This document shows positions 4,382 through 34,803 of a stretch of 34,970 nucleotides of DNA, piece by piece. Source of the DNA: Planctomycetota bacterium. Lineage in GTDB: Bacteria > Planctomycetota > Planctomycetia > Pirellulales > UBA1268. The position numbers were made by a program, and so were the translations under genes. The stretch's first letter is position 1, and each line of letters starts with the position of its first letter. A model generated the notes under the pieces. The model did not search any database and was not told the origin of the DNA. It was given only the letters and a program-made list of their open reading frames with translations. The stretch spans positions 1 to 34,970 of the forward strand of contig VGZO01000043.1 of the NCBI GenBank assembly GCA_016872555.1, in the 5' to 3' direction.

Positions 4382-4396
4382 CAGGGCGGCGTCAGC
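4377..4396. terminator. Inverted repeat spanning two convergent stop codons
   Basis: GCTGAC (4377-4382) and GTCAGC (4391-4396) are perfect inverted arms around an 8-nt loop. The left arm holds the TGA of the oxoamine synthase, and the right arm holds the complementary stop of the exporter. It could act as a bidirectional terminator, but there is no T tract. Confidence 0.35.
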
Positions 4397-6716: not shown

Positions 6717-7162
6717 TCGTCCGGATCCACGATCCACCCGCGGCAGTTGGCGGCCCCGCACCGGCACGGAATCGCGGCATCGGCCGGCCAGGCGTAGTCG
6801 ATCAGCAACTCCTCGCCCGGTGCCACGTCGCGGATCGTCTGCACCCAGAGGCGGTCTTCCTCGCTCGCCCGCCCGTCGTCTTCGCACCAGTAGAAAAGCT
6901 CACAGTTGGGATCGCAACAGTGATTGAGGAACCTGAATGGCGCCGCGGGTTCGAGGAGCCGGCCACTGGGAAGCTCCATGCAATAGGTCGGATCGGGGGG
7001 ATGGGCGTCGCACACCGTGCCGCGGATCTCCCCGACGACGGTGCCCGCGGCGAGCCGCCGCCGTGCGAACAAGCCGCGGCCAACGTGGGTTTGGGCGGTG
7101 CGGACGAGTCGGAGGGCGGCTTCGTCGGCCGGATTGCGGCCGGGGGCGGGGGAGCGAGGCAT
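6635..7162 (-). CDS. SET domain-containing protein
   Basis: 175 residues from ATG 7162. The SET fold is read from VGRGLFARRRLAAGTVVGEI at the N-terminus, the pseudoknot motif FRFLNHCCDPNCEL and APGEELLIDYAW. It is followed by a post-SET zinc cluster with the spacing CRCGAANCRG. SET proteins are usually S-adenosylmethionine-dependent lysine methyltransferases; bacterial members are often short stand-alone enzymes with unknown targets. The tail after the post-SET cluster overlaps the start of the exporter gene in another frame. No good ribosome binding site is visible. Confidence 0.88.
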   Translation of the reverse strand: MPRSPAPGRNPADEAALRLVRTAQTHVGRGLFARRRLAAGTVVGEIRGTVCDAHPPDPTYCMELPSGRLLEPAAPFRFLNHCCDPNCELFYWCEDDGRASEEDRLWVQTIRDVAPGEELLIDYAWPADAAIPCRCGAANCRGWIVDPDEWHLLTPTTPPSSAPAADGDFPRLPPS

Positions 7163-14600: not shown

Positions 14601-15713
14601 ACGGCGATCCCGCGCGCCGCGGCGCCGCTGGCGGCGTTCGCCGGTGCCGCCGATGACGCGACCTGGGTGAGCCTCGTCAACCGCTGCGGTGAGCCGTGCA
14701 CGGCGCAGCTGGTCGCGGCGGAGACGGTGCCCTCCGCCGACGAGCCGGCGACCGGCGCGGCGCTGGCGTCCGACGGTCGGTCGCTCGCCGTGCCCCTCGC
14801 ACCGTGGGAGGAGCGCACGGTGCTGTTCGCCGGCCCCGTCCGCTTCGACCGCGTCGATGCCCTGCTCGACCCGGTCGTGGCCGGCGTCGTCGACGACCTC
14901 GTCGCCGGACTGCGACGGCGCCGCGCCGTCCTCGAGACGCCGCTCCCGCTGCCGGTCCTCGACAACCCCGCGTTCGAGCAACCCGAGTTGGGTGACCGGG
15001 TCGCGGGCTGGGAGCTGCTCGAACCGCAACGCGGCACGCTCCGCGGCGTCGCTCCCGGCGCCGGTGGCGAAGGCCGTGCCGCCGAGTTCGCCACCGTCAC
15101 CGGCCTGGCCACGCTCCGCAGCAATCCCTTTCCGGCGCCGGCCACCGGGCGGATCAGCGTCGCCGTCTGGCTGCGGATCCCCACCGAGTCGACGCAGCCG
15201 CCGCTGCGGATCGCCCTCGAGGGTCTCGAAGGGGGGCGCGAGTACTACCGCTTCGCCCCGGTCGGGATGGCACCCGGGGCGATGCCGCTGTCGCGGTCGT
15301 GGTCGCAGTTCGTGCTCCAGGTCGACGACCTGCCCACGGCAGGATTGGAGTCGCTCCGCGTCCGGCTCGATCTCCTCGGCCCCGGGGCAGTCGAGATCGA
15401 CGACGTGCGCGTCTTCGATCTGGCGTTCGACGAGTCGCAGCGCGTGCAGATCACCAAGCTGCTGGCGCTCGTCGACCACCATCGCGGCGAGACCGATCTC
15501 GGGCGCTGCCTACTCGAGCTCGACGAGCCCTGGGCTCGGTTCCTGCTGGCCTTCGTCGTGCCCGCCGCCGAACCGCCCGTCGCGGGTGCGGTGCCGGCCG
15601 GCCCGGCAGCACCCGGTCCGGGAACGACGGGAACCCCGCGGCCCAAGGAACGGACCGCCCGGCAGCCCGCGCCGGCCGGGATCATCGACCGCTTCCGCCA
15701 GTGGTGGCAGTGA
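11685..15713 (+). CDS. Very large secreted protein, possible glycoside-hydrolase-like barrel with C-terminal jelly roll
   Basis: 1342 residues. The N-terminus has an Arg-rich start and a hydrophobic stretch (ALPAVAKLLAALTALAPASA), a plausible signal peptide. Residues ~45-300 look like beta-sandwich repeats. Residues ~530-860 (DDWHGLLVGCRSLAEWLAAQ, RLDPVPKDALALACRLFA, WLEWRAAEVARFHHRLADI) resemble a family-10-like (GHL10) TIM barrel of the kind found in large planctomycete surface proteins. Residues ~1100-1240 (LPVLDNPAFEQPE, GWELLEP, VEIDDVRVFDL) resemble a carbohydrate-binding jelly roll. The C-terminus is a Pro/Ala-rich linker ending in IIDRFRQWWQ. I cannot identify catalytic acids, so function is unassigned. 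It starts 155 bp after the AlkP-like gene and converges with the HIT gene. Confidence 0.8.
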   Translation: MPCPLRQRRSFRGDRPGRCRALPAVAKLLAALTALAPASADEPGAVGPPVTVRITWGGGRPRGWSGTVRVLAPTGQVLPLPAWRPLAADPEAVARIHPRDGHLQVVAGGERVVLDGIEIAIPDWATARIEVALAADGAATPVTTTVAVSDLLGSPALEPLDAEANRLSLERAGGDELRVVFPAPGPVPDAPLPTLRRPGDTVRFEVHPLLAGRPAGSTSVELRARVVASDDGESHATQAVLLREIAADGARAFEPVPVELALPVREGAYDIVLEVVERSGLRWSRPIATRTVQCVAVSTAAPVSPIAEWKKVCEVDPGSPRLLERLRRLPGVKVPAVVPANLPLAGGAMGRVPLPSLPVPLPKLPAVGEMVPKFTGLLAVGDSTLVPHPAGAMLSLPPAPGAGQVSWEGIAVAGLQPAHPHVVEVEYPIDQDAMVGITVLEQVGSEVRATAAGGFVVERPLATRSHPVAEGIATHRFVFWPHTRAGVVVLSNAAQRTPLHIGRVRVLSGPQRLPPAPSAGAGEARRTLLAFLAEPDFERFGGVRRVDGATGRGVDDWHGLLVGCRSLAEWLAAQGADGAVVTVAADGGAVWPSATLGTAPRWDGGGSFNGRLDPVPKDALALACRLFARERLRLVPAIAGTGPLPVIEALLAEGAGDPTGLVCVGADGRPRRGPGVAGRYNILDPRVQDACAEVVGELAARLRGEPAVEGLALVMPHDGWLHLPGVATALDDATFRRFLAAAGPVAAGLEPVAAPGPERFARRAALVEGPLREPWLEWRAAEVARFHHRLADIVRSVDPDWTLTLVPTTLFSAGDLAARFRALVSTAAAEGDLAREAGLDLARLAAHGSIVVGIPHVTAATADIVEAGIVERANRAVAPGPPAARRAAVLVSQPRSLDLGTAVQHMPLRGDAPESIDCRAVLAGAAARRPSAAVFAGGDVVLVIDESLSTVSADEIQSRTRRARAALPAVPMTAIPRAAAPLAAFAGAADDATWVSLVNRCGEPCTAQLVAAETVPSADEPATGAALASDGRSLAVPLAPWEERTVLFAGPVRFDRVDALLDPVVAGVVDDLVAGLRRRRAVLETPLPLPVLDNPAFEQPELGDRVAGWELLEPQRGTLRGVAPGAGGEGRAAEFATVTGLATLRSNPFPAPATGRISVAVWLRIPTESTQPPLRIALEGLEGGREYYRFAPVGMAPGAMPLSRSWSQFVLQVDDLPTAGLESLRVRLDLLGPGAVEIDDVRVFDLAFDESQRVQITKLLALVDHHRGETDLGRCLLELDEPWARFLLAFVVPAAEPPVAGAVPAGPAAPGPGTTGTPRPKERTARQPAPAGIIDRFRQWWQ

Positions 15714-16595: not shown

Positions 16596-17789
16596 CTATC
16601 CCGCACAAGCGCCGCAGGCGGACTTCGGCGGCCGCTCGCGCGGGACGCGGCGGCCGAAGTCGCACTCGATCGCGAATCGGGCCATGCGGAGGAGCGACTC
16701 GTGGTCGATCGTCGGGCAGGGGAACTGACCGGCATGGGCCACCGTCGCCGCGCGGTCGAAATCGGGATCGCAGCGGAGGTAGCTGCGATACACGCCGAGC
16801 TGTGACCGGAACTCGTCGGCGAACCAGCGCTCGTCGCGGACGTCGGGGTCGTCCGGGGAGGCGGCCCGGGAAAACCGCTCGACAGCCTCCTGGACGACGC
16901 AGGCGATCGTGCCCGTCGACACCGGCTCGGGGTGGGTGAGGTGAAACGTCCGGCCATGTGCCGCCGGGGTACGGACGAGATGGCACATGACCTGCGAGAC
17001 CCAGTCGACGGGGACGAAGTTCTTGCGGTCGCGGCCGTCGATCCGCAGCAGCCGCAGCAGGGCGCGACCACTGGTCGATCCGAGGAGCATCCGCGGGAGG
17101 AGGGTGTGGCCGAGACGCGCCAGGGCGTAGAAACCGTGGTAGGTCGAGGTGAATCCGGAACGCGAGTCGCCGACGATGATCGCCGGACGGTAGACGGTCA
17201 CCGACCGGAGGTGATCGGCGCCGTGGACCAGGGTTTCGGCCTCGACCTTGCTACGCTCGTAGTCGTTGCCGAACCGTTGGCCGACGTCGAGCTCGGTCTC
17301 GAGCACGCGCCCCGAGCGCAGTCCGCAGACGTACGCCGTCGAGACGTGATGGAACTCGCCGATGCCGGCGGCGCGGGCCAACCCGACGACGTGCGCGGTG
17401 CCGCCGACGTTGGTGCGCCATGGGTCGCCGTCGCGGTCCGCGCCGTGGAACGTCAGCGACGCGGCGTTGTGGAGGATCGCCCGGCAGTGCTCCCCGAGAT
17501 CGCGGACGGCGTCGTCGTCGAGACCGCAGCGCGGGGCGCCGATGTCGCCGGCGACCACGGTCGGGCGGGGGAGCGGATGCCCGAGGTCCCCCTCCCAGGC
17601 CGCGACCATCGCCTCGATGCGCATGGCGGGATCACGTTTGCGATCGGGACGTACCAGCAGCAGCGGTCGCTCGCCGGCGAGGAGCAGGTCGCGGACGACG
17701 TACGAGCCGAGCAACCCCGTGGCGCCCGTGACGAGGATCTGCCGGGCCGAAGGATCGACGGGAAACGAATCGGGCGGGCAGACGATCAT
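16596..17789 (-). CDS. Thioester reductase-like NAD(P)-binding protein (copy 1)
   Basis: 397 residues from ATG 17789; earlier in-frame codons give low-complexity Arg-rich sequence. It is an extended SDR of the NAD_binding_4/thioester-reductase type, which reduces carrier- or CoA-bound acyl chains to aldehydes. The nucleotide motif is LVTGATGLLGSYVVRDLLL, followed by HNAASLTFHGADRD, STAYVCGLRSG and the catalytic Tyr/Lys in NDYERSKVEAE, then VYRPAIIVGDSRSG. It is clearly paralogous to the gene at 32136-33677 (shared ETELD-GQ--GNDYERSK block). No carrier or adenylation domain is fused, so it must act in trans. It lies 128 bp downstream of the acyltransferase gene on the same strand and likely contributes to chain release or modification. 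Confidence 0.88.
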   Translation of the reverse strand: MIVCPPDSFPVDPSARQILVTGATGLLGSYVVRDLLLAGERPLLLVRPDRKRDPAMRIEAMVAAWEGDLGHPLPRPTVVAGDIGAPRCGLDDDAVRDLGEHCRAILHNAASLTFHGADRDGDPWRTNVGGTAHVVGLARAAGIGEFHHVSTAYVCGLRSGRVLETELDVGQRFGNDYERSKVEAETLVHGADHLRSVTVYRPAIIVGDSRSGFTSTYHGFYALARLGHTLLPRMLLGSTSGRALLRLLRIDGRDRKNFVPVDWVSQVMCHLVRTPAAHGRTFHLTHPEPVSTGTIACVVQEAVERFSRAASPDDPDVRDERWFADEFRSQLGVYRSYLRCDPDFDRAATVAHAGQFPCPTIDHESLLRMARFAIECDFGRRVPRERPPKSACGACAG

Positions 17790-17917
17790 GGCGACGGAGC
17801 GATCCTGGCTCGAGGGCCGCCGGTTGCCGTGGACAGTGGCGGGCCGGGGTCGAAGCAATCTATCAGCCGCCGGCAAAAGTCCATCGCGGCGCCGTTTCCC
17901 CGCCGATCGGGTCGATG

Positions 17918-19270
17918 TCATCCGCCGGGCGTGGAAGCCGCGAGCGCTGCCGCCGTGTCGTCGATGGCGCGGCGCACGAGCTCCGCGAAGGCGGCGCTCG
18001 CACCGGCGCCGAGGTGCCGCTCGTCGGTGTGGACCGCGAGCCGGAGGCTGCCCGCGTAGGTCATGATCCCGACCCCCGCGCGGGTCCGCGGCCGTAGCGG
18101 GGGAACCCCGACGATGCCGGTCAGCAGGAGATCACGGGGAGCGTGGCGACCGTCGACGATCGGCACCGCGGCACGGAGGCGGGGTGCGAGGTTGCCGACG
18201 TTGCTGATCACCGCGGTCGACAGGCACAGAGGGAGGCGGGTCAGCAGCCACAGCAATCCCGGCACGCGTTCGAGGGCCTCGACGGCGTGAAGAAACTGGG
18301 CGGCGGCACCGGTTTCCTTGATCCAGCGGCTCGCCGCCGCCAGTGAGCGGACGAGCGTCGTGGGATCGCCGCACTCCTCCGCCGACCGGTCGAGAAATGC
18401 GTAGCCGATATGGTTGCCGGTCGGAACCGTCGCGCCAGGGTCGCGGAGGCTGACCGGCATGTTGATGCGCACGTGGCGGGCCGGGGTCCCCGCCGCGGCG
18501 TTCCAGTCGAGGGCGGTGCGCATCGCGGCCGCGACGAGGAGATCGTTGACGGTCACTCCGGCCGCGCTGGCGATCCCCCACAAGCGAAGTGTCTGGTCGG
18601 GAGTGAAGACGACGCAGGCGTAGGGGGGGGCGAGTGGTTCGTCGGGGACGGGCGCGGTCGGGGTGGCGAAGGGGGCGAGCACCGCCGGCCGGAGCCGGGC
18701 AAAACTCCCCGACTCACGTGCCAGGCGGCGGGTGTCGGGGACCGCCGGCCGTGGGGCGGCGCTCGTCTGGGGAGCGGACGGTGCCTGGCGCCGGACGACT
18801 GCCGGAAGGTCGCCGCCGCAGGGTGGTTGCCCGGTGTGGTACGCCGTCCACATCGCGCCGAGCCACTCGATGCAGGCCAGACCGTCGCAGACCGTGTGAT
18901 CGACCACCAGGACCACGCTCCACCGCGGCGGCCCACCCGGATCCCGCTCGCGCTCCAGCGCGACGACCCGCAGCCCGCTGGAGCGGGTCGCGTCGCACGG
19001 TCGCCAGGGATCGGCGGCCGCCCGGTCGGCCGACAGGGGCCACCACTCGACCGCGGGGTCGGTGTCGGGGGGCAGCCAGACCCAGCGTCTGCCGCGGCGG
19101 CCGATCCGCATCCGCATCCTCGGGTGACAGGCGGCCGCCGCCGCCACCGCGGTTTCGAGCCGGCGGCGGTCGAGGGGGCCCTCGAGCTGGACTTCGAGCA
19201 GGAAGTCCATCGGGTAGCCCCGCCTGCGGTCGACGAGGAGCAGCGTCTCGAAAGGCGAAAGCGGTTCCAT
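17918..19270 (-). CDS. Condensation/wax-ester-synthase-like acyltransferase
   Basis: 450 residues of the CoA-dependent acyltransferase superfamily (NRPS condensation domains, PapA, WS/DGAT). The active-site motif reads VVDHTVCDGLACIEWLG: the catalytic second His and the Asp-Gly of HHxxxDG are kept, and the first His is Asp. The C-terminal half has NMPVSLRDPG and GNHIGYAFLD, then VISNVGNLAP and GIMTYAGSLRLAV, as in PapA- and wax-synthase-like members. It is divergent from the large synthase and upstream of thioester reductase 1. Inference: it esterifies the alcohol or hydroxyl product of the cluster with an acyl thioester. Substrates cannot be read from sequence. Confidence 0.82.
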   Translation of the reverse strand: MEPLSPFETLLLVDRRRGYPMDFLLEVQLEGPLDRRRLETAVAAAAACHPRMRMRIGRRGRRWVWLPPDTDPAVEWWPLSADRAAADPWRPCDATRSSGLRVVALERERDPGGPPRWSVVLVVDHTVCDGLACIEWLGAMWTAYHTGQPPCGGDLPAVVRRQAPSAPQTSAAPRPAVPDTRRLARESGSFARLRPAVLAPFATPTAPVPDEPLAPPYACVVFTPDQTLRLWGIASAAGVTVNDLLVAAAMRTALDWNAAAGTPARHVRINMPVSLRDPGATVPTGNHIGYAFLDRSAEECGDPTTLVRSLAAASRWIKETGAAAQFLHAVEALERVPGLLWLLTRLPLCLSTAVISNVGNLAPRLRAAVPIVDGRHAPRDLLLTGIVGVPPLRPRTRAGVGIMTYAGSLRLAVHTDERHLGAGASAAFAELVRRAIDDTAAALAASTPGG

Positions 19271-19392
19271 TCAGTCGCACGAGCCCGGGGGCAACCCGGC
19301 CTCGCGGACGGGAAAAGCGCGAGAGCGATTGTTTCTAGCAATTGCAACGGTCGGAAGGGGGCCGCCTGGGAACGTAGTTTTCCTGGGATTTC

Positions 19393-19420
19393 TTGACACT
19401 TCTTCCCGTCCATCCATACT
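19393..19420 (+). promoter_or_regulatory. Sigma-70-like promoter for the synthase operon
   Basis: A perfect -35 TTGACA (19393-19398) is followed, after 16 bp, by CATACT (19415-19420), four of six matches to TATAAT. It sits in a locally AT-richer patch and points towards the synthase, leaving a leader of about 345 nt to the TTG start. Confidence 0.5.
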
Positions 19421-19759
19421 CACTTCCGCGTCGGAGTCGGCCCAGCGGCCGGTGATCCGTGGCTTCCCGGCGACCGTCCCGGTCACGCGGGCAGCCCGTA
19501 GTCCGACCCGACGCACGCGATCACCCCCGGTCCGGTCGACAGCCGACCCGGCGGTGAGCGGCGATGCCCGCGGCGGGTTGCTGGCGTGGGTGTCGTGCGG
19601 ATCCCAGGGAAGGGTGTTGGACGCCTCACGGCACGTACCGCGCCCTCCCGAGACCGATCCGAGCCGGCTTTCCGCCGGACATCTGCCCGCTTCCCCGACC
19701 CGTCCGGTGTCCCGCCCGTCGTGGCAGGGTTACGGCGGGACCGTACACACGCCAAGGAC

Positions 19760-19764
19760 GAGGA
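19760..19764 (+). promoter_or_regulatory. Ribosome binding site deciding a TTG start
   Basis: GAGGA lies 6 nt before TTG 19771, which begins the sequence LQEPLAIVGMSCRLPG, exactly where ketosynthase domains start. This favours TTG 19771 over ATG 19564. Confidence 0.6.
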
Positions 19765-19770
19765 TCAGCC

Positions 19771-22700
19771 TTGCAGGAACCACTCGCAATCGTCGGCATG
19801 TCCTGCAGGCTCCCGGGCGCCGATGGGCTCGACGCGTTCTGGCGGCTCGTGGAATCGGGGGGAGTCGCCTGGGGGCCGCTCCCTGAGTCGCGCCTGCCGC
19901 GGGATTTGTACTTCGACCCGCGGAAGGGCCAGTTGGGGCGTTCCTATTCGGAGATGGGGGCGCTGGTTTCGGAGCGGCAGCCCGATCCGCGGACCTGCCC
20001 GATCACCGAGGAGATGCGCCACCGCTACGACATCGCCCACGTGGTGTTCCTCGAAGTCACCGCCCAGGCGTGCCGCGATGCCGGACTCGATCCGTTCGCG
20101 ATGCCGGCCGACCGTCGGACGGGTGTCTACGTGGGGCACACCGGCGGCAGCACGCGGATCGGCGACATCGTCTACGGCACCGGGATCGACGAGACGGCGA
20201 CGCTTCTCGGCGACGTCGACGTGGCGCGGCGGTTGCTCGGCCCCGACGTGGCGGCGGTCGCCGCCGAGGTCACCGCGGCGATCCGCGACCGCTACCCGGG
20301 GCGCCTTCCTGGGGAGCGGCTCGATCTCGAGGCCCTCGGCGCCGCCCGGATCGTCCAGGAGGCGCTGCGGCTCGACGGGCCCTACCTGGTGGTCGATGCG
20401 GCATGCGCCTCGTCGCTGCAGGCGCTGGCGATTGCCGCCCGGTCGCTGGCGACCGGCGGGATCGACCAGGCGATCGTCGGTGGCGCCTCGTACTGCAAGT
20501 CGGACAGCCTCGTGCTGTTTTCCGCCGCCCAGTCGGTGAGCAACACCGGCTCGTGTCCGTTCGGCAGTGACGCCGACGGGCTGGTGACCGCCGAAGGCTA
20601 CGTGGCGTTGGTGCTCAAGACGCTGTCGCGGGCGCAGGCCGACGGCGACCGGATCCGCGCCGTGATCCGCGGCATCGGGGTAGCCAGCGACGGCAAGGGC
20701 AAGAGCCTCTGGGCTCCGCGCCGCGAGGGGCAGATGCTCGCCGTCGAGCGGGCCTACCCCGATCCAGCCGAGATGTCGCACATCGACTACATCGAGGCCC
20801 ACGCCACCAGCACCCAAGTCGGCGACGCGACCGAGCTGGGGGCGCTGGCCAGTCTCCTCGGCAAGCACCTGCCGGCCGGACGGCGGATCCCGATCGGCAG
20901 CGTCAAGGCGAACATCGGCCACACGCTGGAGACGGCGGGGCTGGCGAGCCTCGTCAAGGTCGTGTTGGCGATGGAACACGGCGTCATCCCGCCCGGCTCG
21001 ACCTGCCGCGAGCTCAACGAGGAGTTCTGTTGGGACGAGGGGCCGTTCTCGGTGCCGCGCGAGTCGCTCCCCTGGCCACGGCGCGCTGACGGTGGCCCGC
21101 GCTGCGCGGCGGTGAACGCCTTCGGCATCGGCGGGCTCAACGTCCACCTCGCGCTTGCCGAGTCGGCACCGGCACGGGCGCCGTCCGTGGTGCGACCGAC
21201 GCCGGCGGGTGACGACGGCGCCATCGCGATCGTCGGTATCGGCTGCGTACTGCCCGGAGCGTTGTCGGTCGCGGCGTTCGGCGAGTTGCTCGACCGTGGC
21301 GTGCCGGCGCTGGCCGATGTACCGGCGGACCGGTGGAACCTCCGGCGGGCGCTCGACCCGTCGGGGCCACGGCCGTGGCGCACCGTCGCCGGCCGTGGCG
21401 GGTTCGTGATCGGTTTCCAGTACGACTGGCGGCGCCACAAGGTGCCCCCGAAGCAGATCGCTGCCGCCAATCCGCTTCAGTTCATGCTCCTCGAGGCGGC
21501 CGACGCCGCGATCGCCGATCTCGGCGGCCCCGCGCGCCTCGACCGGGCGCGGACGGCGGTCGTCGTCGGGACGATGTTCGGCGGCGAGTTCTCCAACGAC
21601 CTGCAGATGGGGCTCCGGCTCCCCGAGACCGCCGTCCACCTCCGCGCCGCCCTGCAGCGCCGGGGGCTGGGGGCTGGCGAGATCGAAGCGATCGTCGCGG
21701 CCTACGAGAAAAAGGTGCTCGAGGAACTCCCGGCACTGGTCGACGAGACGGGCAGCTTTACCAGCAGCACCCTCGCCAGCCGCCTCACCAAGTCGTTCGA
21801 TTTGATGGGGGGTGCGCTGGCGCTCGACGCGGGCGATTGTTCAACGCTGGCGGCGATCGCCGCCGCGGCCGACATGCTCCACCAGGGGACCTGCGACGCC
21901 GTTGTCTGCGCGGCCGGGCAGCGCGCGATGGACCTGATGGCGTTCGAGGGGTTGTCGCTGGAAGGCGCGCTTACGGCGGAGCCGGCGGCGCCGTTCAACG
22001 CGGCCGGCGGCCGGATCCCGGCCGAGGGCGCGGTGGTCCTCGTCCTCAAGTCACTGGCGGCGGCGCGAGCCGCGGGCGATCCGATCCGTGCCGTGATCCG
22101 TGGCGTCCGCGTCGGCAGTGGCGTGGCGCTCGAGGAAGTCGCCCCGCGCGTCGTCCACGATGCCGCGACGGCGGCGCGCGTGCCGCCCACCGCGATCGGC
22201 GCCGTCGAGGTGTCGGGGAGCGGTGCGGCGGCGATCGACGGCGTCGTGGCCGCGGCCCTGGCGGCGGAATACGGCAACGCCGGTGGGCCGCCACGGTCGG
22301 CCGGATCGCTCGACGGCCTCGTCGGCCACTGTGGTGCCGGTGCCGGTGCCGCGGCGGTGGTCAAGCTCGCCCGAAGCCTCGCCAGCGGTACGCTGCCGGC
22401 AACGCCGGGAATCGCCGGTGAGGTCACGGTCGCCCCCGGAATCGTCGCCAGTGCGGCGCCGCGGGCGATCCCCGCCGCCGACGCCGCCGGGTATCGCGCC
22501 GCCACCGTGACGACGGTCCACGCGCTGCTGGTCGGCCATCTCGTCATCGACAACGGGCTGCCGGTTCCCACGGCCGCCACGGTCGTGCCGGCCGCGCCTG
22601 CGGCGCAGGCGCGACCGATCGCGCCGCCAGCGGCGGGCGGGCGGGCGCTGGTGGCGGCGATCTTTCCCGGGCAGGGGTCGCAGTACGGCGACATGTTCCG

Positions 22701-25700
22701 GTCGTTGGCAACGGAGACCGCCGACGGGTCGGCGGTGCGTGACGAGCTCGACGGCATGGCGCGGCGCGTCGGCCTGCCGACGCTCGCCGAGACGGCGTGG
22801 CGGGCCGACCATGTGCTCGGGCTCGACATCCTCGCCACCCAGTGGTCGATGTATCTCGGTGACCTTTGTGCGTGGCGCGTGCTCGAACGTCTCGGCTTCG
22901 CCCCCGACATCGTCGCCAGCCACAGTTTCGGCGAGTTCCCGGCGCTGGCGGCAGTCGGCGCCTGGTCGGTCGACGACGGTGCGCGGGCGACACGGGCCCG
23001 GGCCGACGCGGTCTTGCAGCACGGCCCGCGGGGCGGGGCGATGCTCTCGGTGATCGCCGACCGGGCCACGGTCGGCGACCTGATCGCGCCGCTGGCCGGT
23101 TCGGTGTGGGTGTGTGCCGAGAATGCCCCCGAGCAGATCGTGGTCGGCGGCACGGTCGCCGGTATCGACGCCCTCGAAGCCCGGCTGCAGCCGACGCGGA
23201 TCCGCTCCAAGCGGCTGGCCGTTCCGAGCCCGTTCCACACGCCGTTGCTGGCGGCTGCCGCCGATCGATTGGCCGGCGCGCTGGCCCCCGTGGCGTTCGC
23301 CACGCCGCGATTGCCGCTGGTGAGCAGCACGACGGTGGAGCCGCTTGTCGACGCGGCGGCGATCCGCGCGAGCCTTGTCCGGCAGATGACCGAGCGCGTC
23401 CGCTGGGTCGACGTCGTCCGTCGTCTCCACGCCGCTGGGGTCCGCACGTTCGTCGAGGTCGGCCCGTCGGGCGTACTCACCGGTCTGGTCCGGCGGATCC
23501 TCGACGGCCTGCCCGGGGTGACGCTGGTGCAGTTCGACCAGCGCGGCCAAGCGGGAGCCGACCACCTGCGGCGGCTGCGCGACCAGCTGTCGGCTGCCGG
23601 GGCGCTGCGAACAGTCGCTACGGCGGTCGCGGTGCCCTCCGCGGTGAGGGCGGTGGCGACCCACCCGGCGATCCTGTCGTTCGATGCCACGGCACGGCGG
23701 CGCGCCCGCAATCGGGCTGGTGGCGGAGGGCCACCGGCCGTTCCGGCGGGCACGGCACCGGCACCGACCGCGCCGATCGCGATGCTGGCCAACGGCCACG
23801 CGGCAGACGCTCCGGGTTCACCCCGCGCTCCTTCTCCCGCGCCCAGCGGCCGCCATGGCGGCGACAGTGGCACGGCCCGAAACGGCAGCCACGATGGCGG
23901 CAATGGCGCTGCAGCGGCGCCGCTGGCACCGGCGCCGTACGTGGCTGTCGGCAGCGCCGCGACCAATGGCTCGGCCTATCCGTCGTCGGGCAATGGCTAC
24001 CACGCCGGCGGCTCGGTCATCGATGCTTCCGCCAAGGCGGCGCCGGTCCGGCTCCGCAACGCCGCCGCCGGTGCCTCTCCGGTCATCCGGCCGGTCGGCG
24101 GCCTCGAGCAGATCGTGGTGGCGCTGCTCACCGAGCATGCCGCCCGCCTCCCACTGGCGAGCGCCGGCACCGCCGGGAGCGACGTGCTCGACGCGCTCGA
24201 GCACCTGTTCGAGAGCGTGCCGTCGCGCCGCGCGGCGGTGATGGCCGCCACGACGCTCGACGATTTCTGCGCTCTGCTCGCGGCCAGCGGCGGGAAGGCC
24301 GAATGGGTCGAGCCCGCGCCCCCGGTGAGCGCTCGAGCCGGCGCTGCGAAGCCATCAGCCCAGGGTGACGGGCTCGAGACGTTCGTGATCGACTTCGTCG
24401 TCGAGCAGACGGGCTACCCGCGCGAGATCGTCGAGCTGGACGCCGATCTGGAGGGCGACCTGGGGATCGACAGCATCCGCAAGGCGCAGCTGTTCGGTGA
24501 GATCGGCCAGCGTTACGGTCTGGGCGCCGACGCGAGCGTGTCGCTCGACGACTTCCGCACGCTGCGGCACCTGCTCGACTACATGCTCCCGCGCGTCGGC
24601 GGGGCGGGGACGTCGACGGCTGCCGTGGCGGCCGTTGCACCGGCTCCGGCGCCGGTCGCGTCGGCTCCGGCGGTGGTCGCGAGCGCCGCGGCGGCTCCGG
24701 CGAGCGCGGCAGGAGCCGCGGAGCTGGAGGCGTTCGTCGTCGACTTCGTCGTCGAGCAGACGGGCTACCCGCGCGAGATCGTCGAGCTGGACGCCGATCT
24801 GGAGGGCGACCTGGGGATCGACAGCATCCGCAAGGCGCAGCTGTTCGGTGAGATCGGCCAGCGTTACGGTCTGGGCGCCGACGCGAGCGTGTCGCTCGAC
24901 GACTTCCGCACGCTGCGGCACCTGCTCGACTACATGCTCCCGCGCGTCGGCGGGGCGGGGACGTCGACGGCTGCCGTGGCGGCCGTTGCACCGGCTCCGG
25001 CGCCGGTCGCGTCGGCTCCGGCGGTGGTCGCGAGCGCCGCGGCGGCTCCGGCGAGCGCGGCAGGAGCCGCGGAGCTGGAGGCGTTCGTCGTCGACTTCGT
25101 CGTCGAGCAGACGGGCTATCCGCGCGAGATCGTCGAGCTGGATGCCGATCTGGAAGGTGATCTGGGGATCGACAGCATCCGCAAGGCGCAGCTGTTCGGT
25201 GAGATCGGCCAGCGTTACGGTCTGGGCGTTGACGCGAGCGTGTCGCTCGACGACTTCCGCACGCTGCGGCACCTGCTCGACTACATGCTCCCGCGCGTCG
25301 GCGGTCACTCAGATGCAACGCCCGCCAGTGTTGTTGCGGCGTCAGCCAGCTTCGTCGCTCCGCCCGCTCGGGCTCCCAGTGAGGCGTTCGTGGTCGGTCA
25401 GGCCGAAGGGCGGCGGCATTCCGCTGCCATCCGTGGGTGGTGCCGAGAGCTGGCGGCGCTCGGCTCTGCAGCGCAGCGCGCGACCCCCGATCAGACCACC
25501 GCCGACTTCCTCGCGGGCGTCGCCGATGCGACCGGAATCGACCGCGGTATCCTCGAAGCAGGGTGGGCCGAGCCGGCCCGCGCCCTCGGCGGCCTCGACG
25601 TGATCGCCGATCTTGCCGGCCGTGACGGCCCGGCGATCCTCGTCGGATTCGGCCGCCATGCCGCGCCGGTGATCCGCCAGCAGTCTGTGGGGACGACGCT

Positions 25701-28662: not shown

Positions 28663-29324
28663 TGCCCCGATCCCATTCCGTCGTTGCTGCATCGAAGAGC
28701 GGATCCACGCGTCATCTCGCTGTCGGTGACGAGATCGTGTCGATCGCCACCCGGGTGCCTTATCCCGGTGAGTCGCTATCGACGGGCGTTCGGCGATTGG
28801 CCGCTGAAGTCATCCGGGACCACCTTCGTGGCCATCACGGCATGATTCGGATCGCGACCGTGCTGCCCTCCGGTCGGCCGGTTGCCACCGATTCCACTGG
28901 TCCCCTTCGGGTGACGGTGTCACTCTCCCACGACGATGGACTGATGGCGGCTGCGGCGGCGGAGCGGTGCAATGTCGGTGTTGATGTGATCGCGAGCAAA
29001 GCACGCTCATCGGGGCTCGACTTTTGGCTCGATCCGGGTGAGCAGCGGTGGGAGAAGCGAGCCGGGATTCCCGGTCTTCTCTGGGCGGCCAAGGAGTCGG
29101 CCTACAAGGCGTCTCGACTCGACACGCCGTTCCGACCCCGCGAGATCGCGGTTTCACCCCGCGGCGACGACGGGTTCCGGTTCACCTGGTCCAACCGCTG
29201 GCACGTGGTCATCGGCTCCGGCCGATTGCTCGTCGACGAAGGCCACGTTGTGGCAGTCGCAACCGCATCTCGGCATGGTCAGCGATCGACCGCGTCGGCC
29301 GCGGAGAGAGCAGCATGTTCTTGA
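28659..29324 (+). CDS. Sfp-type 4'-phosphopantetheinyl transferase
   Basis: 221 residues. It transfers phosphopantetheine from CoA to the serine of carrier domains, here presumably the three ACPs of the adjacent synthase. Family motifs are TVSLSHDDGLMAAA (the SHxxG segment), NVGVDVIA (GxD magnesium site) and LLWAAKESAYKA (WxxKEA-type). ATG 28659 overlaps the synthase stop as ATGA, so it is probably coupled to it; ATG 28662 is a possible alternative. The gene has visibly lower GC than the upstream part of the synthase. Its 3' end overlaps the Rieske gene by 10 bp. Confidence 0.93.
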   Translation: MMPRSHSVVAASKSGSTRHLAVGDEIVSIATRVPYPGESLSTGVRRLAAEVIRDHLRGHHGMIRIATVLPSGRPVATDSTGPLRVTVSLSHDDGLMAAAAAERCNVGVDVIASKARSSGLDFWLDPGEQRWEKRAGIPGLLWAAKESAYKASRLDTPFRPREIAVSPRGDDGFRFTWSNRWHVVIGSGRLLVDEGHVVAVATASRHGQRSTASAAERAACS

Positions 29325-30472
29325 GCGACACCCACCTGCAGCAGCTTTTCCCGCCAGCGTCGTATACCTCTCCGGCGATGTTCGAGGCGGAACGCGAAAG
29401 ACTTCTGTTGCCGGCCTGGCATCTCGTCACGACCATGGCCGAGATCCCGCGGGTCGGCGACTTCATCACATCTCGGCTCCTCGATCATGACATCATCGTT
29501 CACCATACCGAAGAAGGCCCGCGGGCGTTCCTCAATGTTTGCCCCCACCGGTTCGCGAACCTTTCCAGTCATCGGGATGGACGGCAGTGTCGACTCACGT
29601 GCCAGTACCACGGCTGGGAATTCGGCGCTGACGGAAGCACGCGTCGGATTCCCGACGCGCCGAGCTTTCGGCCCTTGGAGAAAGGTGCGTTCGGGCTCCA
29701 TCGACTGTACTGCGAGACATTCGGGCAGCTTGTGTTCGTGAGGCTGGGCCTCGGTCAGACGGCACTGGATGCACGATTCGGTCCGCGGCACGACGACGTC
29801 AGCCGCGCGGTCGCCAGCGAGCATCGGTTGGTGGTGTCCTGGTCGCGTGAAGTCGCGGCCAACTGGAAGGTGATCATCGAGAACAACCTCGAAAGCTACC
29901 ACGTCGGCGTGGTGCATCGGTCAACGCTCGGATCGATGCCCGATGAAGAGGTCTGCCACCACGAATTGTCACCGGTTCACAGCCGTTTCACGGCACCAGG
30001 TGGTGTCCCGGGATTCATCGGTGACCTGCAGCGAACACTTCTCCGGCGGGTCGGCGGGGAGCCCTCGCGGAAGTATCACCATTGCCTGTTCATGCCAAAT
30101 CTGACCGTGTTGTGGATGGATGACATCTCCGCGGTGCAGACCTTCGAACCGATGACCTCGAGGACGACGAGGGTGACTTTTCGCGGATTTGCGCTGTACG
30201 GCTCGCGGCGGGGGCCTGTCGTCGAGCGCTGTCTGCGTTGGCTTGCTGCCCGCCATCTGCGTTTCTGGGGCCGCGTGTGGGAGGAGGACTTGCGGCTTTT
30301 TCCCGACCTCCAGGCGGGACTCGAGAACCCGGTGCTCCCGTCGCCGGGGCTGATTTCAAGGCGCGAGGAACGAATTCACCATTTCCAGCGCTGGGTTGTC
30401 GATCGATTGGCTGACGCTGCAGACGGTTCCACAGCAGTCAGCACGCAGTCGAATGCGGGAGGGGTGGCATGA
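29315..30472 (+). CDS. Rieske non-heme iron oxygenase alpha subunit (copy 1)
   Basis: 385 residues from ATG 29315, which has GGAGAG upstream. The open frame extends further left but only as an out-of-phase reading of the PPTase gene. The [2Fe-2S] Rieske ligands are in NVCPHRFANL (CxH) and CQYHGWEFG (CxxH). The mononuclear iron site shows NNLESYHVGVVHR, with the third ligand probably the Asp in WEEDLRLFPD. Such enzymes hydroxylate, demethylate or desaturate substrates with electrons from a separate reductase, which is not in the window. Placement between PPTase and methyltransferase genes with overlaps on both sides implies tailoring of the synthase product. Related to the second Rieske protein at 33694-34803. 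Confidence 0.93.
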   Translation: MFLSDTHLQQLFPPASYTSPAMFEAERERLLLPAWHLVTTMAEIPRVGDFITSRLLDHDIIVHHTEEGPRAFLNVCPHRFANLSSHRDGRQCRLTCQYHGWEFGADGSTRRIPDAPSFRPLEKGAFGLHRLYCETFGQLVFVRLGLGQTALDARFGPRHDDVSRAVASEHRLVVSWSREVAANWKVIIENNLESYHVGVVHRSTLGSMPDEEVCHHELSPVHSRFTAPGGVPGFIGDLQRTLLRRVGGEPSRKYHHCLFMPNLTVLWMDDISAVQTFEPMTSRTTRVTFRGFALYGSRRGPVVERCLRWLAARHLRFWGRVWEEDLRLFPDLQAGLENPVLPSPGLISRREERIHHFQRWVVDRLADAADGSTAVSTQSNAGGVA

Positions 30473-31356
30473 CGACCACCGCGCCGCCCCCCCGTGGCCT
30501 CGTCGAGATGGTCCTCCCCGACGGCCGGGCCGTGCTCACGTTGTGCCGCGACAACACCGCGATCGCCTACGGGGAGATCTTCTCCGAGCGGATCTACGAG
30601 CTGTTCGGGATCACGCTCGAAGACGGCGCGACGGTGATCGACGTCGGCGCCAACGTCGGCCTGGCGGTGATCTGGGTCGGCGATAAGATCGCGCACGGCA
30701 CCGTCCACGCCGTCGAGCCGATCCCGGCGACGTTCGCCGCGCTCGAGGCCAACGTCGCCCGCCACGTGCGCCTCGACGTCCACCTCCACGCTGCCGGCGC
30801 GTCGAACCGGGCCGGAACGGCGGAATTCACCTTCTACCCGCTGACGAGCACCAGTTCCTCGATGTACCCCGACGACTCGGCGGCGGCCCACGCCGAGTCA
30901 CGGGCGTTCATCCGCGCCGACATCGAGAAGCGGATCGGCTTCCTCGCCCGGCTCGCCCCCGGCCGGCTCCTCGAGCGCGTCGCCGAGCGGATCCGCCGCC
31001 ACTACCAGGCCGCCGTCACCGTTCCCTGCCGGTTGCTGCGGATCTCCGACCTGTTCGCCGCCCACGGCCTCGAGCGCGTCGACCTGCTCAAGATCGACGT
31101 CGAGGGGGCGGAGTTCGACGCCGTCGCCGGGATCGACGCGGCGCACTGGCCGCGGATCCGCCAGGTGATCGTCGAGGTCCACGAGGGCACCGCCGCCTGC
31201 GACCGGATGGAGGCCCTGCTCGCCGCCGCCGGGTTCACGACGGCGCGCTACCAGCAGGCCCCTACGATCTTCCCGCGCCACTGGCTCGTCTATGCCAGGC
31301 GGTCCGCCGCCACCAGGTCCGTCGCCCACGCTCACACCGAGGAGTGCCTGTCATGA
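30469..31356 (+). CDS. FkbM family methyltransferase
   Basis: 295 residues. FkbM enzymes transfer methyl from S-adenosylmethionine, mostly to hydroxyl groups. The SAM-binding motif is TVIDVGANVGLAVIWVG, followed by VHAVEPIPATFAALEANV and the family hallmark VDLLKIDVEGAEFDAVAG. Residues ~130-185 form an Arg-rich insertion between core strands. The start ATG overlaps the Rieske stop (ATGA), and a strong GGAGGGG lies just upstream. GC and codon use jump back to the GC-rich norm exactly at this gene. Likely role: O-methylation of a hydroxyl added by a Rieske enzyme (inference). Confidence 0.93.
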   Translation: MTTTAPPPRGLVEMVLPDGRAVLTLCRDNTAIAYGEIFSERIYELFGITLEDGATVIDVGANVGLAVIWVGDKIAHGTVHAVEPIPATFAALEANVARHVRLDVHLHAAGASNRAGTAEFTFYPLTSTSSSMYPDDSAAAHAESRAFIRADIEKRIGFLARLAPGRLLERVAERIRRHYQAAVTVPCRLLRISDLFAAHGLERVDLLKIDVEGAEFDAVAGIDAAHWPRIRQVIVEVHEGTAACDRMEALLAAAGFTTARYQQAPTIFPRHWLVYARRSAATRSVAHAHTEECLS

Positions 31357-32117
31357 TCGACCTGTCGGGGAAAGTGGCCCTGGTCACCGGTTCGAGCCGC
31401 GGCATCGGAAGGGCCTGCGCACTGCGGCTCGCCGAGGCGGGGGCCGACGTGGTGGTGAACTTCGTCACCAGCGGCCGTGAGGCCGACGCCGTCGCCGCCG
31501 AGATCGCGGCGCTCGGCAGGCGCGTGGCCTGTGTCCGGGCCGACGTCGGCCAGGAGGAGGACGTCGACGACATGATCGGCTTCGTCCGCGAGTCGTTCGG
31601 GCGCCTCGACATCCTCGTCCACAACGCCGCCACCGGCGGGTTCCGCCCGCTGGCCGCCACGTCGCAGCGCCACTTCGATGCCGCGATGCACACCAACGTC
31701 CTTTCGCTGGTCCACCTCCTCAAGGCGTCGGCGCCGCTTCTCGAGGGGGGCCCGGGACGCGGCAAGGTGGTCGTGCTCTCCAGCCACGGCACCCACATGG
31801 CGCTGCCGATGTATGGATTGATCGGCGGCACGAAGGCGGCGCTGACCGCGCTGTCGCGGCACTGGGCGCTCGAGCTCGGAGACCGTGGCGTGAACGTCAA
31901 CATCGTCGAGGCGGGGCTGGTCGATACCGACTCCACGCGCCGCCTCCCCGGCGCCGCCGAGATGTTCGCCGGCCGGACGAGCAAGACGATGGTCGGCCCG
32001 CGCCAGCTCGAGGCGACCGACGTCGCCGACGCGGTGCTGTTTCTCGCCAGTCCCCTCGCCGATCTCGTGCAGGGCCAGACGCTCGTGGTCGACGGCGGCG
32101 CGGCGATCCACGTCTGA
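31353..32117 (+). CDS. FabL-like SDR, probable enoyl reductase
   Basis: 254 residues from ATG 31353, which overlaps the FkbM stop (ATGA) and has GAGGAG 8 nt upstream. The Rossmann motif is VALVTGSSRGIGRACALRLA, with HNAATGGFRPLAAT and a Tyr-x6-Lys active site in YGLIGGTKAAL. The Y-x6-K spacing, the NAATG--RP segment and the ending VQGQTLVVDGG match Bacillus FabL (enoyl-ACP reductase III) better than FabG, which has Y-x3-K. The synthase has KR and DH but no ER, so this protein could supply trans enoyl reduction. A keto- or alcohol-reductase role remains possible. Confidence 0.85.
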   Translation: MIDLSGKVALVTGSSRGIGRACALRLAEAGADVVVNFVTSGREADAVAAEIAALGRRVACVRADVGQEEDVDDMIGFVRESFGRLDILVHNAATGGFRPLAATSQRHFDAAMHTNVLSLVHLLKASAPLLEGGPGRGKVVVLSSHGTHMALPMYGLIGGTKAALTALSRHWALELGDRGVNVNIVEAGLVDTDSTRRLPGAAEMFAGRTSKTMVGPRQLEATDVADAVLFLASPLADLVQGQTLVVDGGAAIHV

Positions 32118-32135
32118 TCCTTCCAGGACCTCCCC

Positions 32136-33677
32136 ATGGCCCCCGACCGCTCCTACCTCCTGCTCACCGGCGCCACCGGCCTCCTCGGCCGGTCGCTGCT
32201 CCGCGATCTCGCCGCCGCCGGGCGGCGCGTGGCGGTGCTGGTGCGCGGCTCGAAGACGGCCGACGCCGCCGCACGCGTCGACGAGCTGCTCGCTGACTGG
32301 CAGGAGGTCGCAGGCGCCGTCGTCGAGTGCCCGGTCGTGCTCGAGGGCGACATCACCCGCCCCGGGCTCGGCCTCGACCCGGCCGCCGCCGACTGGGTGG
32401 CGCGCCACGTCGGCGAGGTGGTCCACTCGGCGGCGAGCCTGTCGTTCGAACGGCGCCCGAGCGACGACGAGCCCTACGCGAGCAACGTCCGCGGCACCGC
32501 CAACGTCCTCGACGCCTGTCGGACCGCCGGGATCCGCCGGCTCCACCACGTCAGCAGCGCCTACGTGTGCGGCCTCCGCGAGGGGCGGATCCTCGAGACC
32601 GAGCTCGACATCGGCCAGACCCCGGGCAACGACTACGAGCGCAGCAAGATCGACTCGGAGACGGCTGCGGTCTCGGCGCCGTTTCTCGACGTGGTCACCG
32701 TCCACCGGCCGAGCATCATCGTCGGTGACCTGGTCACCGGGTTCACCAACACGTTCCACGGGTTCTACAAGCCGCTGCGGATCGTGCAGCCGTTCGTCGA
32801 GGCGTTCGTCCAGGCGCGGCTCGCCCCGGGCAGCCTCCTCGACGTGCTTGGGATGAGCGGCCGCGAGGCCAAGAACCTCGTGCCGGTCGACTGGGTCTCG
32901 GCGGTGATGACCCGGATCATCCAAGACCCGTCGGCCCATGGGCGCACCTACCACCTGGCCACCGATCATCCGACCCCGTCGGGGCGGCTGTGCCGGCTGT
33001 TCGAGGAGCTGGTGGTCGCGATGGCCGCCGAGCGTTCCGCCGGCCGCGCGGGTGCCGCCCCGCGCCCGCCGGCGTTCGACCCGGCCACGCTCGGCCGGCT
33101 GTTCGGCGACCAGATGCACGTCTACCGCGCCTACTGGCGCGACGACCCGCGCTTCGACACCAGCCACACCCGCGCCTTCGCCCCCGATCTCCCCGCGCCG
33201 CAGCTCGACGACGAGACGATCCGGCGCCTGTGCCGATTCGCGATCGGCAGCGGCTTCCGCTGGCCCCCTCCGGGGCGCCCGGCGCCCGGGCCGGGCGCGC
33301 GGGGGGCACTCGTGGAGCGTCTCGGCGCACCGCGGTGGAGCGCCGCACCGGCCGGCCCCTGCGCGGGCCTCGCCGTGGCGGGTGCCGGCGGTGGGCAGTG
33401 GACGCTCGGCAGCGGCGCCGACGGGCGTCCGACGTGGCACGTCGGTCTCCCGGCGCCGGGCGCCCCGGTCGTCCGCCTTACCGCCGCGCGGCTTGCCCAC
33501 GCCTGCGACGAGCGCCATCCGGCCGCGGCCCTCGACGGGGCACTCGTCGAGGGGACCACCGCGGCCGATCGCCAGGTGGCGGTCGACCTGCTCACGGCCG
33601 TCGTCATGCGAGCGCCCGGCGCTTCCGCGCCCGCGGAGCGGCCCGCCGGCTCCCGGCCACTGGCGGCAGTTCGCTGA
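32136..33677 (+). CDS. Thioester reductase-like protein with extra C-terminal domain (copy 2)
   Basis: 513 residues. Residues 1-395 parallel the gene at 16596-17789: LLLTGATGLLGRSLLRDLAA, HSAASLSFERRPSD, SSAYVCGLREGRILETELD and catalytic NDYERSKIDSE, then VHRPSIIVGDLVTG. Residues ~395-513 are unique to this copy: a Gly/Pro-rich linker, then QWTLGSGADGRPTWHVG, VVRLTAARLAHACDERHP and GTTAADRQVAVDLLTAVV. This has the look of an SCP2-like lipid-binding domain, but I am not sure of it. The start follows AGGA 8 nt upstream, 18 bp after the SDR stop. Likely role: NAD(P)H-dependent release of the chain from ACP as an aldehyde, since the synthase has no thioesterase. Confidence 0.88.
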   Translation: MAPDRSYLLLTGATGLLGRSLLRDLAAAGRRVAVLVRGSKTADAAARVDELLADWQEVAGAVVECPVVLEGDITRPGLGLDPAAADWVARHVGEVVHSAASLSFERRPSDDEPYASNVRGTANVLDACRTAGIRRLHHVSSAYVCGLREGRILETELDIGQTPGNDYERSKIDSETAAVSAPFLDVVTVHRPSIIVGDLVTGFTNTFHGFYKPLRIVQPFVEAFVQARLAPGSLLDVLGMSGREAKNLVPVDWVSAVMTRIIQDPSAHGRTYHLATDHPTPSGRLCRLFEELVVAMAAERSAGRAGAAPRPPAFDPATLGRLFGDQMHVYRAYWRDDPRFDTSHTRAFAPDLPAPQLDDETIRRLCRFAIGSGFRWPPPGRPAPGPGARGALVERLGAPRWSAAPAGPCAGLAVAGAGGGQWTLGSGADGRPTWHVGLPAPGAPVVRLTAARLAHACDERHPAAALDGALVEGTTAADRQVAVDLLTAVVMRAPGASAPAERPAGSRPLAAVR

Positions 33678-33687
33678 CGCCCTGTCG

Positions 33688-33703
33688 CTCGGCTCACGCC
33701 GAG
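33688..33703. terminator. Short hairpin between convergent genes
   Basis: CTCGGC (33688-33693) and GCCGAG (33698-33703) pair perfectly around a TCAC loop that contains the stop of the minus-strand Rieske gene. It lies just after the end of the synthase operon. There is no T tract, so termination is only a possibility. Confidence 0.35.
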
Positions 33704-34803
33704 GCGAGCGCGCGCTTCAGATACGAGTGGAACGCCCAGATCCGTTCCTCGCGGGTGCCGATGCAGCCCTTGAACGGCGTCGCGGCGATCCCGCGCTGCT
33801 GCGCCTCGAACACGCTGGCGTCCTCGCGCTGGATCGCGGAATTCGCCTTCACGCCGTGCCGCGCGACCATGTGGGCGATGATCCGGGCGATCGGCCCGCG
33901 CTTCTCCCCCTCGAGGCTGAACATCCACGCCATCGTCCGCGACGTCGTCGGTCCGGTCGGCAGGTACACCTGCGCGTAGGTAAACAGGTCGGCGAACGTG
34001 AACACCAGGTTGGGAAACACGTGGTGGTGCACGTACTGGTCGTGGCACGGCGGTCCGCCGAGTTGCCGCGACACCTGGCGCTGTTTCTTCACCGGCTCGC
34101 TCGTCGGATCGAGCGCGTAGACGAGCGTGGTCGAGCGGTCTTCGAGCCAGTGGGCCTGGGCCTCCTCGGGGATCATCCCGAAGCCGCCGAGCGTGGTCGG
34201 GTGGATGAACGGCAGGTGGTAGGTCTCGACCGTGTTCTCGACCGGGATCTTCCAATTGCAGGCGAACTCGCGCTGGTACGTCCAATTGCAGCGGTAGGGC
34301 ATCGCGAACGCCGCGGCGACGCGGGCGTGGAACTCGCCGAGGTATTCGGCGAGGGTCGGTCCCTCGGGCGCGAGCCGCACGAACACCAGCTCGCCGCAGG
34401 TGTCGGCGGTGAAACACTGCAACCGGGCGTTTTCCCGGTCGAACGGCTTGAAGCAACCGCCGTCGGGAACCTTGGCGACCTTGCCGTCGGGCCCGTATTC
34501 CCAGCCGTGGTACTGGCAGACCAGCCGCGGGTCATGCCCCTGCGCGCGGCTGGTGAGCTGGCAATGGCGGTGGGAGCAGACGTTGAGGTAGGCGAGGAAC
34601 CGCCCCTCGTGGCGGCGGAGGAGGACCGGCCGGCCGCACAGGTCGAGCGACCGGTAGTCGCCGTCGGCGTGGAAGTCGCTCGCCAGCGCCACCGGGTGCC
34701 AGGCGGCGAGGAACAACTTCTCGACCTCGCTGCGGGCGACCTCGGGATCGACGTAGTCGGCCGGATCGAGGAGGTAGGCGAGTTGTTCCTTGTGGACGAA
34801 CAT
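33694..34803 (-). CDS. Rieske non-heme iron oxygenase alpha subunit (copy 2)
   Basis: 369 residues. Rieske ligands lie in NVCSHRHCQL (CxH) and CQYHGWEYG (CxxH); the catalytic iron motif is ENTVETYHLPFIHPTT. The N-terminus EVEKLFLAAWHPVALASDF and the end GTREERIWAFHSYLKRALA are typical of single-component alpha subunits. It shares layout with the Rieske protein at 29315-30472 but is clearly diverged, so the two probably act at different positions or steps. It faces the operon, ending 16 bp from thioester reductase 2. A hairpin precedes its start. No ferredoxin reductase is present nearby. Confidence 0.93.
   Translation of the reverse strand: MFVHKEQLAYLLDPADYVDPEVARSEVEKLFLAAWHPVALASDFHADGDYRSLDLCGRPVLLRRHEGRFLAYLNVCSHRHCQLTSRAQGHDPRLVCQYHGWEYGPDGKVAKVPDGGCFKPFDRENARLQCFTADTCGELVFVRLAPEGPTLAEYLGEFHARVAAAFAMPYRCNWTYQREFACNWKIPVENTVETYHLPFIHPTTLGGFGMIPEEAQAHWLEDRSTTLVYALDPTSEPVKKQRQVSRQLGGPPCHDQYVHHHVFPNLVFTFADLFTYAQVYLPTGPTTSRTMAWMFSLEGEKRGPIARIIAHMVARHGVKANSAIQREDASVFEAQQRGIAATPFKGCIGTREERIWAFHSYLKRALASA

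Follow-up and report, generated by a model that had tools for sequence, protein, structure and literature searches.

Iterative synthases related to those of polyunsaturated fatty acids (PUFAs) have been sorted into Types A to T (Shulse and Allen 2011, PMC3098273). Type R combines a synthase of the layout ketosynthase (KS)-malonyl acyltransferase (MAT)-chain length factor (CLF)-three to six acyl carrier proteins (ACPs)-ketoreductase (KR) with a downstream phosphopantetheinyl transferase (PPTase), whereas Type F, the heterocyst glycolipid (hgl) type, relies on separate hglE and hglC [KS-CLF-acyltransferase (AT)] genes and on PPTases carrying the motifs P0, hRxhLS, and P1b, (F/S)NxSH (PMC3098273). 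In the hgl system, HetM/HglB carries an ACP at its N-terminus; hetN reportedly is not involved in making the glycolipids (PMC8064123). In a survey covering 182 phyla, the hgl islands fall beside PUFA synthases from Proteobacteria, Bacteroidetes and Chloroflexi; the main text of that survey makes no mention of planctomycetes (PMC11804610). The locus that we describe here lies at positions 16596-34803 of contig VGZO01000043.1 of a Planctomycetota bacterium (order Pirellulales, UBA1268; assembly GCA_016872555.1, 4.47 Mb, 98% complete), the 34,970 nucleotides of this entire contig being referred to below as the window. It is organized around a single 3032-residue synthase, and we consider it, with somewhat more confidence than doubt, to be a secondary-lipid cluster related to the PUFA synthases and confined to the Pirellulales, whose product would be a long saturated chain that is reductively released, esterified and hydroxylated.

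The synthase gene (19564..28662, plus strand), called by translation and Pfam/NCBIfam scans, probably has its true start near residue 43-70. It encodes a KS (19765..21183) whose C281-H413-H453 residues are invariant, a second KS-like domain (21205..22563), an AT of the malonyl-transferase type (22654..23601; S1121/H1225 invariant), three tandem ACPs (24373..25305; three PP-binding matches, serines 1637, 1754 and 1871), a C45-like region, a KR with its structural subdomain (26221..27753; Y2639/S2626) and a dehydratase (DH) of the double-hotdog type (27820..28644; H2777/D2946). In an alignment of 39 long homologue rows, some of which represent one genome fetched twice, the Cys/His/His of the KS, the Ser/His of the AT, the Tyr/Ser of the KR and the His/Asp of the DH are conserved in every row that covers the position. 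In the second KS-like domain, Asp occupies the position of the active Cys, and the other rows have Asp, Glu, Gln, Asn, Ala or Thr but never Cys; judged by these residues, the domain is therefore a real CLF. The KS-CLF pair can be aligned with 6riw, a solved KS-CLF whose entry bears the name ORF10 and which we take to be the PfaC of Moritella. The scans detect no enoyl reductase (ER) domain within the synthase, and none of the scanned genes of the window is PfaD-like. The ACP repeats are mutually 96-99% identical in protein and 95-98% identical in DNA, which suggests a recent duplication or gene conversion; a collapse of further copies during assembly is possible.

The relationship with the PUFA synthases PfaABCD(E) is that of a relative rather than of a member. 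The order KS-AT-tandem ACP-KR-DH is that of PfaA and the KS-CLF pair that of PfaC, whereas in the window KS and CLF are fused ahead of the AT and PfaD is missing. The synthase scores 757 bits against the NCBIfam PfaA model, for a cut-off of 1010, its KS lies outside the PfaA and PfaC KS clades included in the tree and the cluster has no PfaD, which places it outside Types A-E. On the other hand, it displays the features that broadly define secondary lipid synthases: an iterative KS with a CLF, an AT, tandem ACPs, a KR and a PPTase gene. Compared by layout, and not by sequence, Type R is the nearest known system, with its single large synthase, its tandem ACPs and the PPTase gene that follows. 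Only this PPTase part of the Type R arrangement is fully reproduced: the order is KS-MAT-CLF there and KS-CLF-AT here, a DH and a C45-like domain are added, and a trans FabL-type reductase, thioester reductases (TRs), Rieske oxygenases and an acyltransferase surround the synthase. The zeamine-type and hybrid specialised-lipid synthases (PMC13291983, PMC3547906) likewise associate a PUFA-like synthase with release by a thioester reductase, but they involve a nonribosomal peptide synthetase (NRPS)/polyketide synthase (PKS) partner and an aminotransferase domain, both absent here. In the KS tree, the 33 Pirellulales rows form one clade (support 100/100) on a long branch, apart from the PfaA- and PfaC-type KSs (Streptomyces and a Persicobacter plasmid), from the Gloeothece KSs and from other planctomycetal PKSs. 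The comparison with PfaA suggested by the initial annotation of the window thus leaves the Pirellulales KSs outside the PfaA/PfaC sequences included, the cyanobacterial KSs in the tree being those of Gloeothece and not those of hgl.

The genes that accompany the synthase, except that of the FkbM methyltransferase, are conserved with it as a unit. TR1 (16596..17921) and the acyltransferase (17918..19270), both on the minus strand, diverge from the synthase, which is followed on the plus strand by the PPTase (28659..29324), Rieske oxygenase 1 (29315..30472), an accessory FkbM methyltransferase (30469..31356), a FabL-type short-chain dehydrogenase/reductase (SDR; 31344..32117, start probably 31353) and TR2 (32136..33677), and then on the minus strand by Rieske oxygenase 2 (33694..34803). 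The order TR1-acyltransferase, synthase-PPTase-Rieske 1-SDR-TR2-Rieske 2 is common to the genus and recurs in the family with some genes lost. TR1 adjoins the acyltransferase in most close relatives, the divergent acyltransferase-synthase pair is found in those where that side is assembled, and distant Pirellulales repeat the order TR-synthase-(PPTase)-(Rieske)-SDR-(acyltransferase). Since no gene is common to the relatives past Rieske 2, the block ends there. Among 59 related genomes, 19 with the synthase and 40 without, and with p-values that ignore shared ancestry, the SDR (E<=1e-70) accompanies the synthase in 17 of its 19 genomes and is missing from all 40 others (p=6e-13), the two misses being a 69% complete genome and a genome with the synthase on a short contig. 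The Rieske homologues (p=1e-10), the close acyltransferase homologues (p=1e-9) and the TRs (p=7e-6) are likewise associated with the synthase. A CLF-domain scan of named genomes matched planctomycete-type records only, mostly metagenome bins labelled Planctomycetaceae or Pirellulales with a few odd labels (Kuenenia, 'bacterium'); the cultured carriers are Bythopirellula polymerisocia, Blastopirellula marina DSM 3645, strain TBK1r, Stieleria sedimenti and Rhodopirellula sp. SM50. No similar KS-CLF covering at least 80% of the query was found in plasmid records, no planctomycetal paper on this synthase in the open-access literature, and no characterised cluster matching the locus. The initial annotation had proposed an uncharacterised, iterative, PUFA-synthase-related lipid pathway. 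Every gene that it listed is present at its coordinates, scores in Pfam/NCBIfam and has intact catalytic motifs, the recurrence of this gene set and its order in relatives shows a grouping beyond chance, and its general proposal is borne out.

The SDR bears on the degree of reduction of the chain. The spacing Y-x6-K is that of enoyl reductases; of the 30 SDR rows taken from clusters, 29 show it, the exception being that of locus L083 (18907-19755), the sole complete cluster SDR without it. The best PDB match is the FabL of Bacillus subtilis (3oic, 185 bits, with Tyr and Lys aligned), the next best reaching 127 bits. The enoyl-reductase signature, the similarity to FabL, and the lack of an ER domain in the synthase and of PfaD in the cluster together indicate that the SDR is probably an enoyl reductase acting in trans in place of PfaD; a housekeeping enoyl reductase is unlikely because the synthase-free genomes lack this SDR. 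The FabL-like character assigned to it earlier is thereby confirmed, at a score of 250.5 bits that remains under the NCBIfam FabL equivalog cut-off of 328, which keeps enoyl reduction at the level of a probable activity. Alternatively, the synthase could leave double bonds and give a polyunsaturated or partly reduced chain, with the SDR acting as a keto- or alcohol dehydrogenase on the product. The synthase without a detectable ER domain and the score of the SDR below the cut-off would both fit such a chain, but the spacing is strictly Y-x6-K and not Y-x3-K, FabL clearly outscores every other solved homologue, and the DH is of the PKS type at the C-terminus rather than a PfaC DH pair; we judge this alternative rather unlikely.

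The release and activation enzymes bear on the resemblance to hgl. TR1 (P0001), an NAD_binding_4 protein, and TR2 (P0008) both have the catalytic motifs GATGLLG and YERSK, and neither contains a PP-binding domain in the Pfam scan, in contrast to the ACP-fused HetM/HglB. The PPTase is at the edge of the Pfam cut-off (24.9 against 25 bits), and its motifs are present: P1a (SGRP) and P1b' (VSLSH), without P0. Fifteen relatives likewise carry P1b', and P0 is matched among them a single time, in L108, by a stray hit that is not credible. By the criteria of PMC3098273, the presence of P1b' and the absence of P0 assign the PPTase and these relatives to Types M-T and not to Type F. A true hgl-like system, in which the PPTase, SDR and TRs would be HetI, HetN and HetM and the product a 1,3-diol aglycone of the heterocyte-glycolipid type, would share the logic of an iterative KS-CLF synthase of PUFA-synthase kinship (PMC11804610), a PPTase and a thioester reductase. 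We find it improbable, given an SDR of the enoyl-reductase type, TRs without the ACP of HetM, PPTase motifs that are not those of Type F, one fused synthase in place of separate hglE and hglC (PMC3098273), and no glycosyltransferase found in the window by the Pfam/NCBIfam scans. The SDR as an analogue of HetN was accordingly rejected on its Y-x6-K signature and its best match to FabL, and the HetI/HetN/HetM parallel drawn in the initial annotation is not supported. The cluster thus works partly like hgl, with a long PUFA-synthase-derived chain, KS-CLF-AT, a PPTase and reductive release, but it is not a member of that type.

The fate of the released chain depends on the acyltransferase, which belongs to the C-domain/PapA5/wax-synthase superfamily. 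PapA5, in phthiocerol synthesis, esterifies a PKS-made diol. In the enzyme of the window (P0002), the motif is DHTVCDG; set against HHxxxDG, it retains the second His, the Asp and the Gly (H125, D129, G130), all three invariant. No PDB relative is found by sequence; the AlphaFold 2 model (pLDDT 87.6) matches PapA5 (1q9j) and the wax synthase 6chj among C-domains. With 50.2 bits against a cut-off of 396 and 41.6 against 310 for the two NCBIfam models of wax synthase/PapA5, both far below threshold, it forms a subfamily of its own that shares fold and motif with PapA5 and the bacterial wax synthases. With a reductive release in the same cluster, ester formation is the likeliest activity, amide formation being the alternative. 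An amide- or amino-lipid could arise if this enzyme acted as an NRPS condensation domain, whose fold it has, or if the AONS (2723-4381) condensed the chain with an amino acid to a sphingoid-type base that the MMPL transporter would export; related Stieleria synthases do hold an AONS domain between two ACPs. The AONS, however, is present whether or not a genome has the synthase (p=0.40), and it stands beside the MMPL gene in synthase-free genomes as well. We consequently rejected the AONS/MMPL pair (2723-6887) as a part of the pathway and give the amino-lipid only a slim chance.

Several observations concern the AONS genes themselves. The AONS at 2723-4381, which is BioF/serine palmitoyltransferase-like, has an N-terminal ACP-like stretch in which the phosphopantetheine serine is apparently missing, and most genomes of the family conserve it, at 67-97%, beside the MMPL transporter. 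A second AONS domain (G000:C1:61388-62551 and homologues, locus L149) lies inside frames of mostly about 1150-1260 residues and is about 50% identical in most Pirellulales genomes searched. In the Stieleria/Rhodopirellula group (L114, 8432-21358; L118; L119), two synthases are found: the first, KS-CLF-ACP-AONS-ACP, is followed by a PPTase and an SDR, after which comes the second, KS-CLF-AT-C45(AAT), whose Cys is intact, an arrangement that looks like a sphingoid-type lipid assembly line.

The Rieske oxygenases are candidates for the hydroxylation: both keep their iron ligand motifs, Rieske 1 with its Rieske Cys/His and 2-His ligands intact. The FkbM gene occupies its site in the window only. 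No comparable homologue is found in three congeneric genomes, two of which are 69-74% complete, and the cluster is assembled without it in G002 and G003; we therefore rejected FkbM as a core step.

The pathway that we propose combines these activities. The PPTase would activate the three tandem ACPs, the AT would load malonyl units, and the KS-CLF pair would extend the chain iteratively. The KR and the DH, with the FabL-type SDR in trans, would fully reduce each unit and thereby generate a long saturated acyl-ACP. Release of the chain as an aldehyde or an alcohol, or as a 1,3-diol should the final beta-hydroxyl be retained, would fall to one thioester reductase, TR2 to judge from its position. 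The PapA5/wax-synthase-like enzyme would O-acylate the released alcohol and the Rieske oxygenases would hydroxylate the chain or the head, the FkbM methylation being an optional decoration in this genome. Such a pathway would most likely deliver a fatty alcohol or diol with a long saturated chain, in esterified and hydroxylated form. The enzyme classes are observed, whereas we infer the saturation and length of the chain, its reductive release, its esterification and hydroxylation, and the order of the steps. The long-chain, hydroxylated and O-methylated fatty alcohol or ester predicted initially is thus retained for its reductive release and probable esterification, while the O-methylation, which rested on an FkbM gene absent from the sister genomes, drops out of the core. 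Besides the SDR score, some points weigh against our proposal: the acyltransferase superfamily also makes amides and its substrate is not readable from sequence, the cluster has two TRs, TR relatives occur in synthase-free genomes, and the co-occurrence counts include close relatives.

The earlier KS-CLF-AT-ACP3-KR-DH description of the synthase was correct for the domains that it listed and missed one between the ACPs and the KR. Residues ~1940-2210 give no family match with the window sequence alone. In the same region of the alignment, NCBIfam NF040521 is found in 19 of 24 members (best 4.8e-46) and Pfam AAT in 14. Searched with the family profile, the Penicillium acyl-CoA:isopenicillin N acyltransferase (2x1c) is matched at 9e-15. 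The profile of the close relatives of the window matches that of the deep members in hhalign (95% probability, E 2.5e-8), for at most 0.5% probability with 20 column-shuffled control profiles. The nucleophile Cys of this C45 domain, of the N-terminal nucleophile (Ntn) type, is retained in the deep members L100, L124, L083, L103 and L114 (Stieleria-type) and replaced in many others and in the window (GGLD), whose isopenicillin N acyltransferase-like domain (25366..26238) is, by this replacement, degenerate. Listed against the presence of a TR in the locus, the loss of the Cys shows no clean correspondence. The AlphaFold model of residues 1935-3032 has moderate confidence over the C45 part, and the fold search made with it gives only KRs among the matches listed, so that it tests the KR part only; a fold search of a viral library weakly lists a linear amide C-N hydrolase and an acid ceramidase, without aligned ranges. 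We found no report of a C45 domain within a PKS in the open-access literature. Tentatively, the Pirellulales might possess a separate class of iterative lipid synthases that has absorbed an Ntn (C45) domain, of which the Cys-intact forms could release the chain or transfer an acyl group, the lineage of the window keeping a decayed structural remnant after release passed to the thioester reductases. If this were true, it would constitute a chain-release or acyl-transfer device of a kind not known in polyketide synthases.

Elsewhere in the window, the lower-GC left end of the contig (366-2266), possibly mobile, holds a RhuM-family gene and a gene with weak DUF559/restriction endonuclease similarity. 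A 1342-residue protein (11685-15713) without Pfam/NCBIfam match is conserved in the family beside a sulfatase-like gene.

In conclusion, the class of pathway is known, and what is new here is the architecture of the synthase, the FabL-type reductase acting in trans and the embedded C45 domain. The trans enoyl reductase and the C45-type domain offer testable parts for the engineering of fatty alcohols and esters. Furthermore, the type I PKS chemistry of the Planctomycetota is almost unexplored, and this order-wide family of lipid synthases, confined to the Pirellulales, is chemically unstudied and has no known product. Related synthases are carried by cultured organisms (Blastopirellula marina, Bythopirellula, Stieleria), in which the product can be sought directly.

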